Assembly (NCBI GenBank): GCA_023015825.1
Contig: JALKAW010000003.1
Coordinates: 186,001-250,000, forward strand
DNA: 64,000 bases
Direction: 5' to 3'
Origin: Flavobacteriaceae bacterium S0862
GTDB taxonomy: Bacteria > Bacteroidota > Bacteroidia > Flavobacteriales > Flavobacteriaceae
Both the position numbers and the translations under genes were made by a program. The first letter of the stretch is position 1. Each line of letters begins with the position of its first letter. Below the pieces are notes generated by a model. It saw only the letters and a program-made list of their open reading frames with translations. It was not told the DNA's origin and did not search any database. Shown here piece by piece: positions 12,285 to 18,881 of this stretch.

Positions 12285-12836
12285 TTGCAAGCACTTTTAG
12301 TAAAATATAAATCGGTTATTAAATTCATTCTAACATTTGTGTTAGTGTATGCTGTTTTATCGGTTGCTTACAAACTGTATTTAGATTATTCAGATGGCTC
12401 AAATTTTTACCCCGATTATGTCACAAATCTCACTGCTAAACAAAGTGAGTCACTTTTAGATTCGCTAGGTTATGAGGCTTCAATTGAAGCGCACCCTGAT
12501 GAGCCATCTATGAAGTTAATTATAAATAACAAATACGTTGCAAGGGTTATTGAAGGTTGTAATTCCATTAGTATTATTATTTTATTTATTTCGTTTATCA
12601 TTGCTTTTGCTGGACGATTAAAACCGACCATTTTTTACCTTTTAGCTGGAAGTGTTTTGATTTATGTTGTCAATTTGTTTCGAATTGTTATTCTTTCAAT
12701 TGGCTTATTTCATTACCCATGGAGACGTGATATTCTACATAATATAATATTTCCATTAATTATTTATGGTATGGTATTTTTATTGTGGATGGCTTGGGTA
12801 AATCGTTTTGCTACTTTTAAAAAACAAGATGCATAA
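12285..12836 (+). CDS. xrtF: Exosortase family protein XrtF
   Basis: A 183-residue multi-pass membrane protein of the exosortase/archaeosortase superfamily, which processes C-terminal sorting signals of exported proteins. The three catalytic residues are in place: Cys92 in VIEGCNSIS, Arg133 in VVNLFRIV and His152 in DILHNIIFP. About five helices are visible, and the periplasmic loop HPDEPSMKLIINNKYVAR is characteristic of XrtF. The start is TTG (12285); the next in-frame Met is residue 76, inside the conserved part, so a non-ATG start is needed. It overlaps the next gene by eight bases. Confidence 0.92.
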   Translation: MQALLVKYKSVIKFILTFVLVYAVLSVAYKLYLDYSDGSNFYPDYVTNLTAKQSESLLDSLGYEASIEAHPDEPSMKLIINNKYVARVIEGCNSISIIILFISFIIAFAGRLKPTIFYLLAGSVLIYVVNLFRIVILSIGLFHYPWRRDILHNIIFPLIIYGMVFLLWMAWVNRFATFKKQDA

Positions 12837-13257
12837 GTGGATAAAATACATAATCATTTTTGGTTTGGTAGTGCTATTAGCATTAGTTAGATATTTTGAA
12901 GATTATTTGTTTTATGATCCGTATTTGCAGTTTTTTGAAAATGACTATTTGTATATCGATTCGCCAAGACGCGAAGCTTTAAAACTTACCCTTTTTACAA
13001 CGTTAAGATATGTTTTAAATACTGTTATTTCCTTAGGCATTTTATTTGTTGTTTTTAAGGATAAAAGTGTTGTTAAGTTTTCGGTTATTATTTATGGAAT
13101 TGCATATTTATTTCTGCTAGCTGCGTTTCTATATTTTGTAATAAACCCAAAGAAAGAAGAGTATTACTTGTTTTTTAATATTCGTAGGTTTTTAATTCAG
13201 CCTTTAATTTTGGTAGTGCTATTGCCAGCCTTTTACTACAATAAAATAAGACGTTAA
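12829..13257 (+). CDS. Exosortase F system-associated membrane protein
   Basis: About 142 residues with four hydrophobic helices. This family always sits directly after xrtF in Flavobacteriia, and the segments VRYFEDYLFYDPY and KKEEYYLFFNIRRFLIQP fit it. The ATG at 12829 lies inside the end of xrtF, which indicates translational coupling; an in-frame TTG at 12808 is less likely. Its molecular role is unknown, but by context it assists XrtF or its substrate. Confidence 0.85.
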   Translation: MHKWIKYIIIFGLVVLLALVRYFEDYLFYDPYLQFFENDYLYIDSPRREALKLTLFTTLRYVLNTVISLGILFVVFKDKSVVKFSVIIYGIAYLFLLAAFLYFVINPKKEEYYLFFNIRRFLIQPLILVVLLPAFYYNKIRR

Positions 13258-13316
13258 TGTTTGTAAAAAAGCAAAGCTTATTTTTAGTTTTTATATCTTT
13301 GCTGACATCTATGATA

Positions 13317-13724
13317 ATGATAAAGCAAATATTTCATAAAGTTTTTTCACTAAGTCTCGCTCTTATTGTGTTATGCTCTACTGTCTCTTTTAAAGTTGAA
13401 AAACATTTTTGTGGTGATGCTCTAATAGATGTAGCTGTTTTTACTGGAGCAGAAGATTGTAGTGGCATTAACACAAACAATACTGATTACACAAAAAAAA
13501 GCTGCTGTAAAAATGAAATATCTGTTATTGAAGGTCAAAGTGAATTACTTGTAAAAATTTTTGATGATTTAGATTTAGAGCAACAAATTTTTGTTGCATC
13601 TTTTACTCATTCATATAGTAATCTTTTTAAAAGATTACCTCAATTAGTCATTCCTCATAAAGATTATTCTCCTCCAAACTTGGTCATCGATAAGCAAATC
13701 ATGGATCAAGTATTTTTAATCTGA
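13317..13724 (+). CDS. HYC_CC_PP family exported protein
   Basis: About 135 residues with a signal peptide (MIKQIFHKVFSLSLALIVLCS) and the three short motifs that name the family: a His-x-Cys in KHFCGD, a Cys-Cys pair in KKSCCKNE, and Pro-Pro in YSPPNLVI. Proteins of this type are found beside TonB-dependent receptors and heavy-metal proteins in Bacteroidota, exactly as here. I took the ATG at 13317 because it opens the signal peptide directly and a TAnnTTTG-like sequence (TATCTTTG, 13293-13300) lies just upstream; a longer frame begins at 13257. The role is unknown but probably metal handling in the periplasm. Confidence 0.75.
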   Translation: MIKQIFHKVFSLSLALIVLCSTVSFKVEKHFCGDALIDVAVFTGAEDCSGINTNNTDYTKKSCCKNEISVIEGQSELLVKIFDDLDLEQQIFVASFTHSYSNLFKRLPQLVIPHKDYSPPNLVIDKQIMDQVFLI

Positions 13725-13821
13725 TATTTTTTAATAGTTGTTGCTATAATTTCTAGCAATATTTACCGCAATGATTTCAATGCGAAATTCTCAAATCATA
13801 AACTATTAGAAAAAATATACT

Positions 13822-16056
13822 TTGAAACGTATTATATACATACTGCTTTTAATACCAACCTTTATGTGTTCACAAGAAGAACTTAAAGGAATAATTTTTG
13901 AAGCAAACAAAAAAAACGAGAAAATATCTTTGCCAGGAGCAAATGTGTATTGGCTTAATACTACAGTTGGTGATGTTACTGATATTGATGGTAATTTTAG
14001 TCTTCCTTACAAAAAGGAATACAAAAAACTTGTCATAAGTTATGTTGGTTTTACAACTGATACTATAACGATTACCAGTAATAAAATGGTGAAACATTGG
14101 TTAAACCCATCGTCAAATTTAGATGAAGTTACTATTAGAGGTAGAAACAAAGCCATGGCAACATCATATTTTGCGTCGCAAAATGTGATTAATGTGAGTA
14201 GTGAAGAGCTGTTGAAAGCTGCTTGCTGTAATCTATCGGAAAGTTTTGAAACCAATCCTTCGATAGACGTCAATTTTGCCGATGCAGTATCTGGAACACG
14301 ACAAATAAAAATGCTAGGTTTAACAAGTCCTTATATATTAATTACAACCGAGAATGTGCCGTCTATAAGAGGAGCATCCCAAGCCTATGGTTTAAGTTTT
14401 ATTCCTGGGACTTGGGTAGAGAGTATTCAAATCACAAAAGGTGCAGGAAGTGCTGTTAACGGTTTCGAAAGCATTGCTGGACAAATAAATGCAGAATTAA
14501 AAAAACCGCTAACAGACGATAAACTTTTTGTTAACCTATTTGCTGCAGGAAGCGAGCGTGTAGAACTTAATACACACTTAAACACGAAAGTCAGTGAAAA
14601 ATGGTCAACTGGAGTATATCTTCATGGAAACACGCATAATAAAAAGCATGATGTAAATGATGATGGTTTCTTAGACATGCCTTTGTATCATCAAATTAAT
14701 GTGATGAATCGTTGGCAGTATATTGATAATGAAAAAGGCTTTGTGAGTTTTTTAAATGTTCGATATCTAGACGATGAAAAGCAATCAGGACAGGTAAATT
14801 TTAACTCTAAAACTGATAAGTTGACCACTAATACTTGGGGTAGTGAAATAGATACTAAACGTATTGATCTGTCTGTTAAATTTGGCTATGTGAATCCAGA
14901 AATTCCATACCAAAAACTAGGCGTACAATTAGCTTATAGCAATCATGAGCAAGAGTCATACTTTGGATTGAATGCATACAATATTAAACACAATAGTTTT
15001 TATGCAAATGTGGTGTATAATTCAATAATAAGTGATTCTAGGCATAAAGTAAAAACAGGGGTTAGTTATGCTAGCGATGTTTATGATGAAGACGTAAACG
15101 CCAATAAATTTACAAGAAATGAAAACTCAGTTGGTGCATTTTTTGAATATGCTTATGATAATTTAGAAGCTTTAAATTTAACAGCTGGAGTACGAGTAGA
15201 TCATAGTAATTTACTTGGTACATTTATAACACCTAGAATTCATTTAAGATATACACCTTGGGAAAAATCGGCGTTTAGAGCATCTATTGGAAGAGGAAAA
15301 CGAAGTGCTAATATTTTTGCTGAAAACCAAAAAATGTTTGCAACCTCTAGGACTATTAATCTTGTCGATACTGGTGGTGATATTTATGGATTAGATCCAG
15401 AAATAGCTTGGAATTACGGTGTATCTTACCTACAAGGGTTTAATCTTTTTGGACAAAAAGCAGATATAACATTTGATTTTTATAGAACTGATTTTAAAAA
15501 CCAAGTAGTAGTAGATTATGAAAACTCACAGGAAGTTAGTTTTTATAACCTAGAAGGAGATAGTTATGCCAATAGTTTTCAAACAGAATTTAACTACAAT
15601 ATATCAGAAGGTTTAGATGTAAGATTGGCATATAAATTTTATGATGTAAAAACCCAATACAATTCTGGAAAATTTGAAAAATCATTAACACCAAAGCATC
15701 GGTTATTTGCAAATGTCTCTTATATGACTAAAGTAAAAAACAATTCTAGATGGAAGTTTGACGCAACATTTAATAGGTTAAGTAAGCAGCGTTTTTCATC
15801 AACACAAAATAATCCAATTCAGTATCAACTTCCTGATTATTCAAATAGTTTAGCAACACTTAATGCACAAGTCACTAAAGTGTTTTCTAATAAATTTGAA
15901 GTATATTTAGGAGGTGAAAACATCACGAATGTAAAACAAAATAATCCAGTAGTTACTGCTGATAATCCATTTAGCAGTAGTTTTGATACTACATTTGTTT
16001 ATGGTCCAATTTTTGGAAGTAACTATTATGCAGGTTTAAGATTAAAAATAAATTAA
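13822..16056 (+). CDS. TonB-dependent outer-membrane receptor with carboxypeptidase-like domain
   Basis: A 744-residue outer-membrane transporter energised by TonB. After the signal peptide come a carboxypeptidase-regulatory-like domain (residues about 20-100, with PGANVYWLNTTVGDVTDIDG), a plug domain (about 105-230, with QIKMLGLTSPYILITTENVP and GAGSAVNGFESIAGQIN), and a beta barrel ending GLRLKIN. The plug contains an unusual AACCNLSESFE segment. The start is TTG (13822). The flanking HYC_CC_PP and HMA genes suggest a metal or metallophore substrate such as copper; this is inferred from context. Confidence 0.93.
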   Translation: MKRIIYILLLIPTFMCSQEELKGIIFEANKKNEKISLPGANVYWLNTTVGDVTDIDGNFSLPYKKEYKKLVISYVGFTTDTITITSNKMVKHWLNPSSNLDEVTIRGRNKAMATSYFASQNVINVSSEELLKAACCNLSESFETNPSIDVNFADAVSGTRQIKMLGLTSPYILITTENVPSIRGASQAYGLSFIPGTWVESIQITKGAGSAVNGFESIAGQINAELKKPLTDDKLFVNLFAAGSERVELNTHLNTKVSEKWSTGVYLHGNTHNKKHDVNDDGFLDMPLYHQINVMNRWQYIDNEKGFVSFLNVRYLDDEKQSGQVNFNSKTDKLTTNTWGSEIDTKRIDLSVKFGYVNPEIPYQKLGVQLAYSNHEQESYFGLNAYNIKHNSFYANVVYNSIISDSRHKVKTGVSYASDVYDEDVNANKFTRNENSVGAFFEYAYDNLEALNLTAGVRVDHSNLLGTFITPRIHLRYTPWEKSAFRASIGRGKRSANIFAENQKMFATSRTINLVDTGGDIYGLDPEIAWNYGVSYLQGFNLFGQKADITFDFYRTDFKNQVVVDYENSQEVSFYNLEGDSYANSFQTEFNYNISEGLDVRLAYKFYDVKTQYNSGKFEKSLTPKHRLFANVSYMTKVKNNSRWKFDATFNRLSKQRFSSTQNNPIQYQLPDYSNSLATLNAQVTKVFSNKFEVYLGGENITNVKQNNPVVTADNPFSSSFDTTFVYGPIFGSNYYAGLRLKIN

Positions 16057-16058
16057 AA

Positions 16059-16436
16059 ATGAAAAAAGTATTAGTATTAACAATTATGCTACTTGGTGTA
16101 ACATCATTTGCACAAAACAAAAACGCAAAGGCATCGCTTGAAGTTGATGGGGTTTGCTTAATGTGTAAAGAGCGAATAGAAAAAGCCAGTGTAAAAACTA
16201 AGGGTGTGAAATCGGCAGTTTGGGATGTAAAAACTCACGAACTTAAATTAATTTTCGACGAGCGTAAAACAAATTTAGACGCTATTAGAAAAAATATTGT
16301 AGCTGTAGGTCACGACACCAAAGAACTTAAAGCTACAGACGAAGCTTATAACAGTGTTCATCCTTGCTGTAAATACAGAGATGAGGATGTAAAAAAAGAT
16401 CACGAAAACGAAACAAAAACGAAAACAAAAAATTAA
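16059..16436 (+). CDS. Exported heavy-metal-associated (HMA) domain protein
   Basis: A 125-residue protein with a signal peptide (to about residue 19) and an HMA ferredoxin-like fold. The metal-binding loop is GVCLMCKERIE with Cys33 and Cys36, matching the CxxC of copper and mercury chaperones. A second soft-metal site may be HPCCKYRDED near residue 100, followed by a charged, Lys/Glu-rich tail. It starts two bases after the receptor stop, so it is co-transcribed and probably accepts or buffers metal in the periplasm. Confidence 0.9.
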   Translation: MKKVLVLTIMLLGVTSFAQNKNAKASLEVDGVCLMCKERIEKASVKTKGVKSAVWDVKTHELKLIFDERKTNLDAIRKNIVAVGHDTKELKATDEAYNSVHPCCKYRDEDVKKDHENETKTKTKN

Positions 16437-16442
16437 GTAACG

Positions 16443-16721
16443 ATGAAAAAAATACTATTAATTTTAGCATTAATGCTAAGTGCAAGTACAGTTTTAGTGT
16501 CTTGCAAAGGAGAAAAAAAAGAGCACAGTGAAGAAACTGAAATGCAAGAAAACCATGCGGCAAGTAAAGCTGATATGGCTATGAACGACATTTACCAATG
16601 CCCAATGGATTGCGAAGAAGGAAAAACTTATGATAAAGAAGGAAATTGTCCTGTTTGCAAAATGACTTTAAAGAAAGTTGAGGGTGATAAGGACGAAAAT
16701 CACTCTGAAGATAATGATTAA
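16443..16721 (+). CDS. Lipoprotein with heavy-metal-binding domain
   Basis: A 92-residue lipoprotein (lipobox VLVSC) with an acidic linker and one heavy-metal-binding domain of the YHS-like type: YQCPMDCEEGKTYDKEGNCP followed by VCKMTLKKV. Such domains occur in copper efflux adaptor proteins of the CusB type. It follows the HMA gene by six bases and is closed by a strong terminator, so HYC_CC_PP, receptor, HMA and this lipoprotein form a transcriptional group. Confidence 0.9.
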   Translation: MKKILLILALMLSASTVLVSCKGEKKEHSEETEMQENHAASKADMAMNDIYQCPMDCEEGKTYDKEGNCPVCKMTLKKVEGDKDENHSEDND

Positions 16722-16741
16722 TTTAATCTACAAATAATTGA

Positions 16742-16775
16742 AAAAGCACTTAGTTTTTACTAAGTGCTTTTTTTA
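16742..16775 (+). terminator. Strong intrinsic terminator
   Basis: Perfect 12-bp inverted repeat, AAAAGCACTTAG at 16742-16753 and its complement at 16760-16771, then a T-run. It ends the metal-handling gene group. Confidence 0.9.
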
Positions 16776-16845
16776 TGATTAAAAAGTAAAAAGTAAAAAG
16801 TAAGGAATAGAATTATTATGCGACTTTTTAGGAAGAAACTACCAA

Positions 16846-17808
16846 ATGAATTCAAAACTAATATTAATTTGTTTAGTATTAATATCTTCTTTAAGCTATG
16901 CGCAAACATGTTGCTCAGGTGGAATTCCATTATCAAATAATATAGGATTGCCAACACTGAGTAAAGGGAGTTTGCAAATTGGTATTAATTATGATTACAA
17001 CAATCTTAATACTTTAAATTTTGGTAAGGAAAAACTTGATGATGATTCTAGGTTGAGAGTGACACATTCAGCATTACTAAATGTTAATTATTCTGTTTTC
17101 AAAAATGTATCGGTAGAGGGCTTATTTACCTATGTTAACCAACGAAGAACAATCACACAATTCGGCAATAACAATTTAGATCAAACTTCAGGGATAGGAG
17201 ATGCTGTATTGCTTACAATGTATAGATATCAGCCAAATAAAATTAAAAATTTAGAGTTTAATATTGGTATTGGGACAAAAATCCCACTTGGTTCTACTAC
17301 CGAAAAAAGTGCTGAAGGCATTGTTTTAAATGCCGACTTACAACCCGGAAGCAATACTTGGGATGTTATTTATTTAATGTCGATGGGAAAAAGTTTTGAT
17401 TTTAGACCATCTTTACAAATAGGTGGAAGGATTCTTTATCGAGCAACAGGAGTCAATAATTCGTACTATGGAAATACTAGCTATAAATTTGGTAACGAAT
17501 TTTTATCGTATCTAAGTTTTTCAGATGTCTTCGTTGCTCTTAAAACCTTAATTTCACCCAGTTTATCTTTAAAGTATAGAAACGCAGTTAAAGATGAATT
17601 AGATGCGTTTTCGTTAGATAATACTGGAGGAAAGTTTGTGTCAATAATTCCGAATCTTGCAATAGATATAACACCTAGCATTACTTTTTCAACAAGGGCT
17701 GAATTACCAATTGTTAGTAATGTTGATGGGACTCAATTAGCACCAACATATAGAATAACTACTGGTCTAATTTTTAAATTTGAGGCGAGACAAACATTGT
17801 TTAATTAA
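16846..17808 (+). CDS. Outer-membrane beta-barrel (transporter-like) protein
   Basis: A 320-residue protein with a signal peptide (cleavage after SYAQ) and alternating beta-strand sequence through to the C-terminal aromatic end, as in the putative MetA-pathway/transporter barrel family. The mature N-terminus begins TCCSGGIPLSNN, with a Cys pair immediately after the cleavage site. It has no enzymatic motif. It precedes the DUF3179 gene by 11 bp and follows the metal genes after a terminator. Function unknown; a channel or metal-related barrel is plausible. Confidence 0.75.
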   Translation: MNSKLILICLVLISSLSYAQTCCSGGIPLSNNIGLPTLSKGSLQIGINYDYNNLNTLNFGKEKLDDDSRLRVTHSALLNVNYSVFKNVSVEGLFTYVNQRRTITQFGNNNLDQTSGIGDAVLLTMYRYQPNKIKNLEFNIGIGTKIPLGSTTEKSAEGIVLNADLQPGSNTWDVIYLMSMGKSFDFRPSLQIGGRILYRATGVNNSYYGNTSYKFGNEFLSYLSFSDVFVALKTLISPSLSLKYRNAVKDELDAFSLDNTGGKFVSIIPNLAIDITPSITFSTRAELPIVSNVDGTQLAPTYRITTGLIFKFEARQTLFN

Positions 17809-17819
17809 TTAGAATAACT

Positions 17820-18881
17820 ATGAAAAAAGTAAGCTTATTAATATTAATTTTTACAATTGTTTATTCCTGTGATAAAGCAAGTATATCTAATCAAGTAGAA
17901 GGTATAGCTTTAGAAGGTCAGGAGGAATGGTTAATCCCTAGACGAGAAATTAAAGATGGAGGTTCTGGAAAAGATGGAATTCCGTCTATTGATAACCCAA
18001 TATTCATAAGCGATCCTGTAGATCTTGAAGATGATGATTTGGTGGTAGGGATTTATTTTGAAGGAGAAGCTAAAGCTTATCCTCATTACATACTAGATTG
18101 GCATGAGATTGTTAATGATATGGTCGGAAACGACCCAATTGCATTATCCTATTGCCCTCTAACAGGAACGGCATTTGCTTGGGGGAGAGCTTCTGAAAAT
18201 CCAGAAGATACTTTTGGTGTTTCAGGTTTGTTATACAATTCTAATTTATTGATGTACGATAGAAAAACGGAAAGCTTGTGGTCACAACTAAAGGTGCAAT
18301 GTGTAAATGGAGATTTAGTAAGTGATATTCCATCAACTTATAGCGTTGTGGAAACCGATTGGAAAACCTGGAAAAGTATGTATCCAGAGACATTAGTATT
18401 AAGTGAAGATACTGGTTATTCAAGGGATTACGAAACTTATCCTTATGGTGATTACAGAACCAATAACAATTTTTTACTTTTTTCACCAGCTCCTTATGAT
18501 AGAAGATTGCCAAGTAAAAAAAGAGTTTATACAATTATTGACAAAACAGTTTCTAAAGCTTATTTATTTGAAGATTTTACAGGTGGAAAAGCTATTTTAG
18601 ACACGTTTAATGGCAAAGAGTATTTAATAGTTGGTAATGAATATGTTATTAATTCGTTTGTTTTAAGTCAGGAAAACCAAGAACTAACCTTTGAATATGA
18701 GTTAAGTGAATCTGGAGGGTTTTTTAAAGATAATCTAGGTACAGTAAGAAGCGTATTTGGTGATGTTGTTTCAGCCAATCAAGGTAATATTGGGGACTAT
18801 TTAACCCCAGCAATCTCAGTAGTTAGCTTCTGGTTTGCTATTGGAGCATTTTACCCTGATGCAGAAATATATATGCCTTAA
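17820..18881 (+). CDS. DUF3179 domain lipoprotein
   Basis: A 353-residue lipoprotein (lipobox IVYSC) of the DUF3179 family. Diagnostic features are EWLIPRREIKDGGSGKDGIP near residue 38, AKAYPHYILDWHEIVND, LSYCPLTGTAFAWGR with its conserved Cys, and LYNSNLLMYDRKTESLWSQL. The family is widespread in marine bacteria and has no established reaction. The conserved Cys and His residues would allow metal binding, which would suit the neighbourhood, but that is speculation. Confidence 0.88.
   Translation: MKKVSLLILIFTIVYSCDKASISNQVEGIALEGQEEWLIPRREIKDGGSGKDGIPSIDNPIFISDPVDLEDDDLVVGIYFEGEAKAYPHYILDWHEIVNDMVGNDPIALSYCPLTGTAFAWGRASENPEDTFGVSGLLYNSNLLMYDRKTESLWSQLKVQCVNGDLVSDIPSTYSVVETDWKTWKSMYPETLVLSEDTGYSRDYETYPYGDYRTNNNFLLFSPAPYDRRLPSKKRVYTIIDKTVSKAYLFEDFTGGKAILDTFNGKEYLIVGNEYVINSFVLSQENQELTFEYELSESGGFFKDNLGTVRSVFGDVVSANQGNIGDYLTPAISVVSFWFAIGAFYPDAEIYMP

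Follow-up and report, generated by a model that had tools for sequence, protein, structure and literature searches.

A 64,000-nucleotide stretch of the Flavobacteriaceae bacterium S0862 genome (contig JALKAW010000003.1, positions 186,001 to 250,000; hereafter the window) contains three adjacent genes whose products each carry an invariant vicinal cysteine pair (CC): a HYC_CC_PP protein (HYC), a TonB-dependent receptor with the pair in its plug, and an HMA-domain protein with the pair in its tail. The three-gene module is very probably copper-related, and its sequence features make it a likely copper-acquisition system of the Bacteroidota in which the vicinal cysteines would serve as Cu(I) ligands. 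The initial annotation of this locus described four Cys-Cys pairs in neighboring envelope proteins within 4.5 kb, together with CxxC motifs in the HMA domain and in a small lipoprotein with a heavy-metal-binding domain (HMBD). All four pairs are where they were described, and both proteins have the additional motifs (CLMC in the former, CPMDC and CPVC in the latter; Table 1). It also proposed that together the proteins could carry copper, or an ion like it, across the outer membrane and periplasm. For three of the genes this is still the best reading, given the invariance of their pairs, their co-occurrence and their copper-type context; the fourth, which encodes an outer-membrane protein (OMP), drops out.

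Conservation of the cysteine pairs

Conservation was assessed in 100 genomes of the same family, the window genome included, using whole-protein or profile searches with no CC seed. HYC_CC_PP proteins are present in 89 of these genomes, the receptor in 67 (E ≤1e-60) and the HMA protein in 78 (E ≤1e-6). At the receptor loci of the relatives the pair is invariant in HYC (53/53, with rows picked by similarity at E ≤1e-4, which could favor CC), in the receptor (59/59) and in the HMA protein (58/58). With the window added, the alignments have 54, 60 and 59 rows, and identity to the window, averaged over columns, is 38, 66 and 61%, respectively. Poor conservation in orthologues, which the initial annotation had named as a finding that would refute its proposal, was not observed for these three proteins; the OMP pair is variable. 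Other potential ligands are retained as well. In HYC, C52 and C68 are kept in all 54 rows and H50 in 52 (numbering of the longer open reading frame, 13257-13724), and C33 and C36 of the HMA protein are as invariant as C103 and C104 in both the 59-row alignment and a second one of 44 rows.

A further 80 named loci, found with seed peptides that included ELLKAACC and therefore biased toward CC in the receptor, and not independent of the family sample because the two sets share species, gave CC in 80/80 receptors, 74/74 HYC proteins and 79/79 HMA proteins. The closest of these loci is from Pontimicrobium aquaticum, with a receptor identity of 88%. C52, C68, C83 and C84 of HYC are invariant in the 74-row alignment of this set, which omits L211. 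The 80-row receptor alignment omits L269, where the receptor is cut by the contig end, and the 44-row HMA alignment uses 43 of the 79 relatives, CC itself having been read in all 79. Such pairs also occur away from this neighborhood: elsewhere the genome encodes another HYC with CC and another HMA protein, with a GCCKY tail. The window genome also encodes a 171-residue protein with two CC motifs (ACCKDK and ACCAEK; L140:8759-9274) on a stretch that has an HMA match.

Could the recurrence of CC in four neighbors be a coincidence among cysteine-rich proteins? For the background, genes were called crudely on the window and on 21 further stretches of this genome; CC occurs in 11 of the 379 genes, and six of these lie in the window. 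This rate is if anything too high, because several of the stretches were fetched for HMA matches. Four CC genes lie within six consecutive genes at the locus, and the 213 six-gene runs elsewhere have at most one each. HYC and the HMA protein are indeed rich in cysteine, and composition alone, assessed by shuffling each protein, gives CC with a probability of 0.12 and 0.095, respectively (0.0075 for the receptor and 0.019 for the OMP). Conservation is a stronger argument against chance than clustering, and it is valid for three of the four pairs, which lie in unrelated proteins and are fully invariant in the alignments; for the receptor, the phylum contrast described below (40/40 against 0/20) adds to it. 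Coincidence is thereby refuted for these three and is highly improbable as an account of the whole, although it likely explains the position of the OMP.

A clade of receptors marked by the plug cysteine pair

A receptor profile search, again with no CC seed, was carried out on 198 genomes of the phylum. Matches were obtained in 64 genomes, 50 of which have a strong match (E ≤6e-118); there are also 24 weaker matches, some in genomes that have a strong one. CC is present in all 50 strong matches, which comprise 40 read with their surroundings, seven read for CC alone, the window, L176 and L177. The weaker matches constitute a sister group, and CC is found in none of the 20 that were read. The genomic neighbors divide along the same line. 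HYC lies beside 26 of the 40 CC receptors by profile and beside three more by pattern, and the HMA protein lies beside 22, in every case with the tail CC; HYC, a CC-tailed HMA protein or both accompany 31 of the 40 CC receptors and none of the 20 sister receptors. At the level of whole genomes, HYC occurs in 33/50 with a CC receptor versus 26/148 without one.

Five further receptor positions that are conserved in the family (M164, H252, H268, H375 and H474) were tracked across the phylum. Only H268 goes with CC: it is His in 38/40 CC-clade receptors and 0/20 sister receptors, in an alignment that is approximate at such distance. Gene order differs among loci (HYC-receptor-HMA or HYC-HMA-receptor) while the genes stay together, so the association is not merely one inherited order. 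At two loci, two extra genes stand between HYC and the receptor, one for a protein of 255-256 residues that matches no Pfam or NCBIfam model and one for an NHL-repeat protein (L163:3292-5277 and L182:10728-12985).

The Plug (PF07715, 36.7 bits) and barrel (PF00593, 80.7 bits) domains of the receptor score over the Pfam cut-offs. Its only cysteines are 135, 136 and residue 16, which by eye lies in the signal peptide. The receptor might take up something other than copper, such as a metallophore or a thiol compound, with CC acting as a structural or redox vicinal disulfide and with HMA and HYC as general copper-homeostasis neighbors. Vicinal disulfides do occur as structural elements, and the AlphaFold model (80 sequences), which has a fair barrel with strands, is of low confidence in the plug (pLDDT <50 over residues 98-192 and most of 199-227), so that the geometry of a CC-His/Met site is unreadable from it. 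In Foldseek searches siderophore, cobalamin, OprC and ZnuD receptors match about equally, the first OprC chain at rank 30, and the fold therefore says only that this is a TonB-dependent receptor. However, a plug CC was observed in no receptors outside the clade accompanied by HYC and CC-tailed HMA proteins, and these genes remain together in either order. We consider the disulfide alternative unlikely.

Genomic context of the module

The genes most often found on the same strand at the 80 named loci are those for the HMA protein (79), HYC (74) and XrtF (61), followed by HMA-MauE (28), CopA (6) and the HMBD lipoprotein (3). In many relatives the HMA-MauE gene, which combines HMA and MauE domains, separates HYC from the receptor; the window cluster does not have it. 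All 13 CopA-like ATPases in or beside the module have CPC, YN and MSFSS (MxxSS), seven having been picked by requiring CPC and none by YN or MxxSS; we take this combination to be the Cu(I) P1B-1 signature. COX1 was found in 188/198 phylum genomes, and being near-universal its presence or absence tells nothing about a link to respiration.

HYC also has a second home. In the family sample, the 30 best HYC loci have CusA as the neighbor in 19 cases and the CC receptor in 11. The second HYC of the window genome heads a series on another contig (L192:7514-19209) whose members, named by eye, are CusA, TolC, an HMA-plus-AraC-type regulator, CopA, CDF and a CusB-like HMBD protein, and the HMA protein with the GCCKY tail comes directly after this series. 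With either the CC receptor or CusA as its neighbor, HYC is therefore linked to copper at loci of the uptake type and of the efflux type alike. In L010 and L021, from genomes that have no CC receptor, CusA accompanies the conserved XrtF-HYC pair, as though the efflux gene had taken the receptor's place.

The same context bears on a reading in which the module serves, or defends against, another soft metal or complex (silver, mercury, cadmium or thiol-bound species) rather than copper nutrition. Vicinal thiols are not specific to copper, and CusA, which HYC adjoins, has relatives that also transport silver. The HMA protein exceeds the cut-off for PF00403 (27.1 against 24.8 bits) but falls below those of the NCBIfam models (CopZ_Bs, 29.4 versus 91; MerP, 24.3 versus 92.55). 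It matches copper-chaperone and mercury-transport (MerTP, MerP) models with similar sub-cut-off scores, so that sequence leaves room for mercury or silver. Its seven solved relatives are five copper-ATPase chains and two zinc-ATPase domains. The uniform Cu(I) signature of the module ATPases argues for copper, within the limits set by the choice of seven of them by CPC, and a module whose receptor is present in 67/100 family genomes would be easier to reconcile with an essential nutrient than with a rare poison. On balance this reading appears rather unlikely.

A model for copper acquisition

We infer that these proteins bind metal, that the metal is copper, that it is imported, and that it is passed on in the following order. 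Copper, as the free ion or in chelated form, would be taken up by the receptor, in which a Cu(I) site would be formed or gated by the plug's two adjacent cysteines, perhaps together with barrel residue H268. When TonB moves the plug, the copper would be set free on the periplasmic side; there the HMA protein, being soluble, may be the first acceptor, by way of its CxxC motif and HxCC tail. HYC, with an N-terminal hydrophobic helix followed by HxC, C and CC, may be membrane-anchored and could hold, relay or sense periplasmic Cu(I), a role in keeping with its other setting next to CusA. Handling at the inner membrane could fall to the HMA-MauE membrane protein or the CopA ATPase that many relatives have in the cluster. 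The window cluster has neither, and copper may here stay in the periplasm for cuproenzymes. More tentatively, the receptors may represent a Bacteroidota-own class of copper importer, defined by the plug CC with H268, in which Cu(I) passes along a chain from the plug CC to the HMA HxCC and on to the HYC CC, with HYC shared between uptake and CusA efflux; this fuller scheme is a real possibility that we hold with some reserve.

The assignment of HYC to its family is firm (118.3 bits against NF047658, cut-off 28), and the HxC, CC and PP landmarks can be read in the sequence. A start at 13317 is probable because the longer reading frame from 13257 touches the preceding gene and relatives are mostly 130-150 residues long. 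No PDB sequence matched HYC at E 1. Its AlphaFold model (mean pLDDT 75, pTM 0.38) has an N-terminal helix, and Foldseek found nothing similar to it below E 4.

Several further observations weigh against copper acquisition by the module. Nine of the 40 CC receptors have neither neighbor in our searches, and under tighter limits (E 1e-5, four called genes per side) the numbers fall to 23/40 for HYC and 18/40 for HMA, with the sister receptors at 0/20. The Fisher p values for the neighbor contrast between CC and sister receptors (2e-8 for HYC, 9e-6 for HMA) and the p value for HYC in genomes with and without a CC receptor (5e-10) overstate independence because the genomes are related. Retention of the other tracked positions among the 40 CC receptors is partial (M164 in 22, H252 in five, H375 and H474 in 28 each), and H375, which is His in 20/20 sister receptors, is not a marker of the CC clade. 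The second home of HYC is an efflux-type series and gives no support to import. The window receptor, the one protein searched in this respect, has no CxxxM and no HxM anywhere and so lacks the OprC/NosA motif, and no regulator gene was seen in the window cluster.

The outer-membrane protein and its partner

The OMP was proposed as a fourth component of the metal route, and we rejected it as a member of the module. It is rare, occurring in 6/100 family genomes and 13/198 phylum genomes (the window genome being counted in both). Among 18 OMP loci it lies next to the copper-type module in two, the window and L180, and adjoins a DUF3179 gene in 14 (divergently in one, L380); neither gene was found on the same strand at any of the 80 named loci. 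Seventeen stretches were fetched for the OMP, one of which (L392) gave no OMP profile match and is outside the 18. The 17 readable N-termini have CC in 12 cases and CSC or CGC in four, with the motif absent from one, and the protein has no Pfam or NCBIfam match. The OMP and DUF3179 genes form a separate two-gene unit, the OMP having a metal-like N-terminal motif of its own, and the OMP is a probable passenger at this locus. This unit (16846-18881 of the window) occurs in several families of the phylum. We know of no function for either protein.

Organization of the locus

The genes on the + strand are, in order, those for the XrtF exosortase, an XrtF-associated protein, HYC_CC_PP, the TonB-dependent receptor, the HMA protein, the HMBD lipoprotein (41.9 bits against PF19335, cut-off 23.6), the OMP and the DUF3179 protein (Table 1). 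The exosortase and its associated membrane protein occupy 12285-13257, upstream of HYC, and no functional link to the module is evident.

Table 1. Genes, cysteine pairs and related features of the locus (coordinates are those of the window)
Feature	Coordinates	Strand	Basis and remarks
HYC_CC_PP protein, 135 aa from ATG	13317..13724	+	NF047658; N-terminal hydrophobic segment, then HxC, C, CC, PP
HYC CC codons	13503..13508	+	Read in sequence; invariant across 54-row and 74-row alignments
TonB-dependent receptor, 744 aa, TTG start	13822..16056	+	CarbopepD_reg_2, Plug and barrel Pfam domains; syntenic relatives
Receptor plug CC, codons 135-136 (ELLKAACCNLSESFETNP)	14224..14229	+	Invariant across 60-row and 80-row alignments
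Receptor H268 codon	14623..14625	+	Tracks CC across the phylum
HMA-domain protein	16059..16436	+	PF00403; signal peptide by eye; CxxC 33-36, HPCCKY tail 101-106
HMA-domain CxxC codons, residues 33-36	16155-16166	+	CLMC
HMA tail CC codons 103-104	16365..16370	+	Invariant in relatives
Small HMBD lipoprotein, optional member	16443..16721	+	PF19335; VLVSC lipobox by eye; CPMDC and CPVC
OMP, probable passenger	16846..17808	+	No Pfam/NCBIfam match; QTCC at mature N-terminus (signal peptide by eye)
OMP CC, C22-C23	16909-16914	+	Read in sequence
DUF3179 protein, OMP partner gene	17820..18881	+	PF11376, 273.8 bits

Comparison with known copper-uptake systems

Few copper-importing outer-membrane receptors are known; those named in the part of the CrtA report available to us are OprC, MbnT, FyuA and CrtA (PMC12914433). 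The window receptor has the TonB-dependent receptor fold in common with OprC/NosA, and OprC uses a plug cysteine (PMC8610252). The OprC site consists of C143, M147, H323 and M325, that is, CxxxM in the plug and HxM in the barrel, and high-affinity binding of Cu(II) requires the plug cysteine; the available portion of that report mentions no HYC or HMA partner genes (PMC8610252). CrtA, again as described in the portion available, is also a TonB-dependent copper importer with copper-related genes in some operons, but it has no conserved Cys or Met, occurs mostly in beta- and gamma-proteobacteria and has PepSY_TM neighbors at >75% of loci (PMC12914433). Compared with this description, the CC receptors differ in their invariant pair, their Bacteroidota taxa and their HYC and HMA neighbors. 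No PepSY match at E 0.001 was obtained among the 10 locus proteins scanned against Pfam.

A second candidate copper receptor from the Flavobacteriaceae is G2EC70 of Bizionia argentinensis, for which copper uptake was proposed, in the part of the report available, from similarity to OprC and a CxxxM-HxM motif (PMC11213822); it is set beside the window receptor here by description only. Bizionia arctica (L230) carries the CC receptor module. The HMA protein shares the HMA domain and its CxxC with CopZ/MerP chaperones and differs from them in its additional invariant tail CC and in scoring under the NCBIfam cut-offs.

No paper on a Cys-pair Bacteroidota receptor was found in the open-access literature searched, among the matches listed, judged by titles and abstract openings, and a full-text search of that literature by name returned none on the HYC_CC_PP family. 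If the copper assignment is correct, the Bacteroidota would gain a directly testable copper-uptake system, with its receptor in 67/100 family genomes and 50/198 phylum genomes, and the HYC_CC_PP family would be supplied with a function. TonB-dependent uptake of copper is already known; the invariant pairs of the three genes and their association over much of the phylum suggest that a Cys-pair receptor with HYC and HMA partners constitutes an undescribed route.

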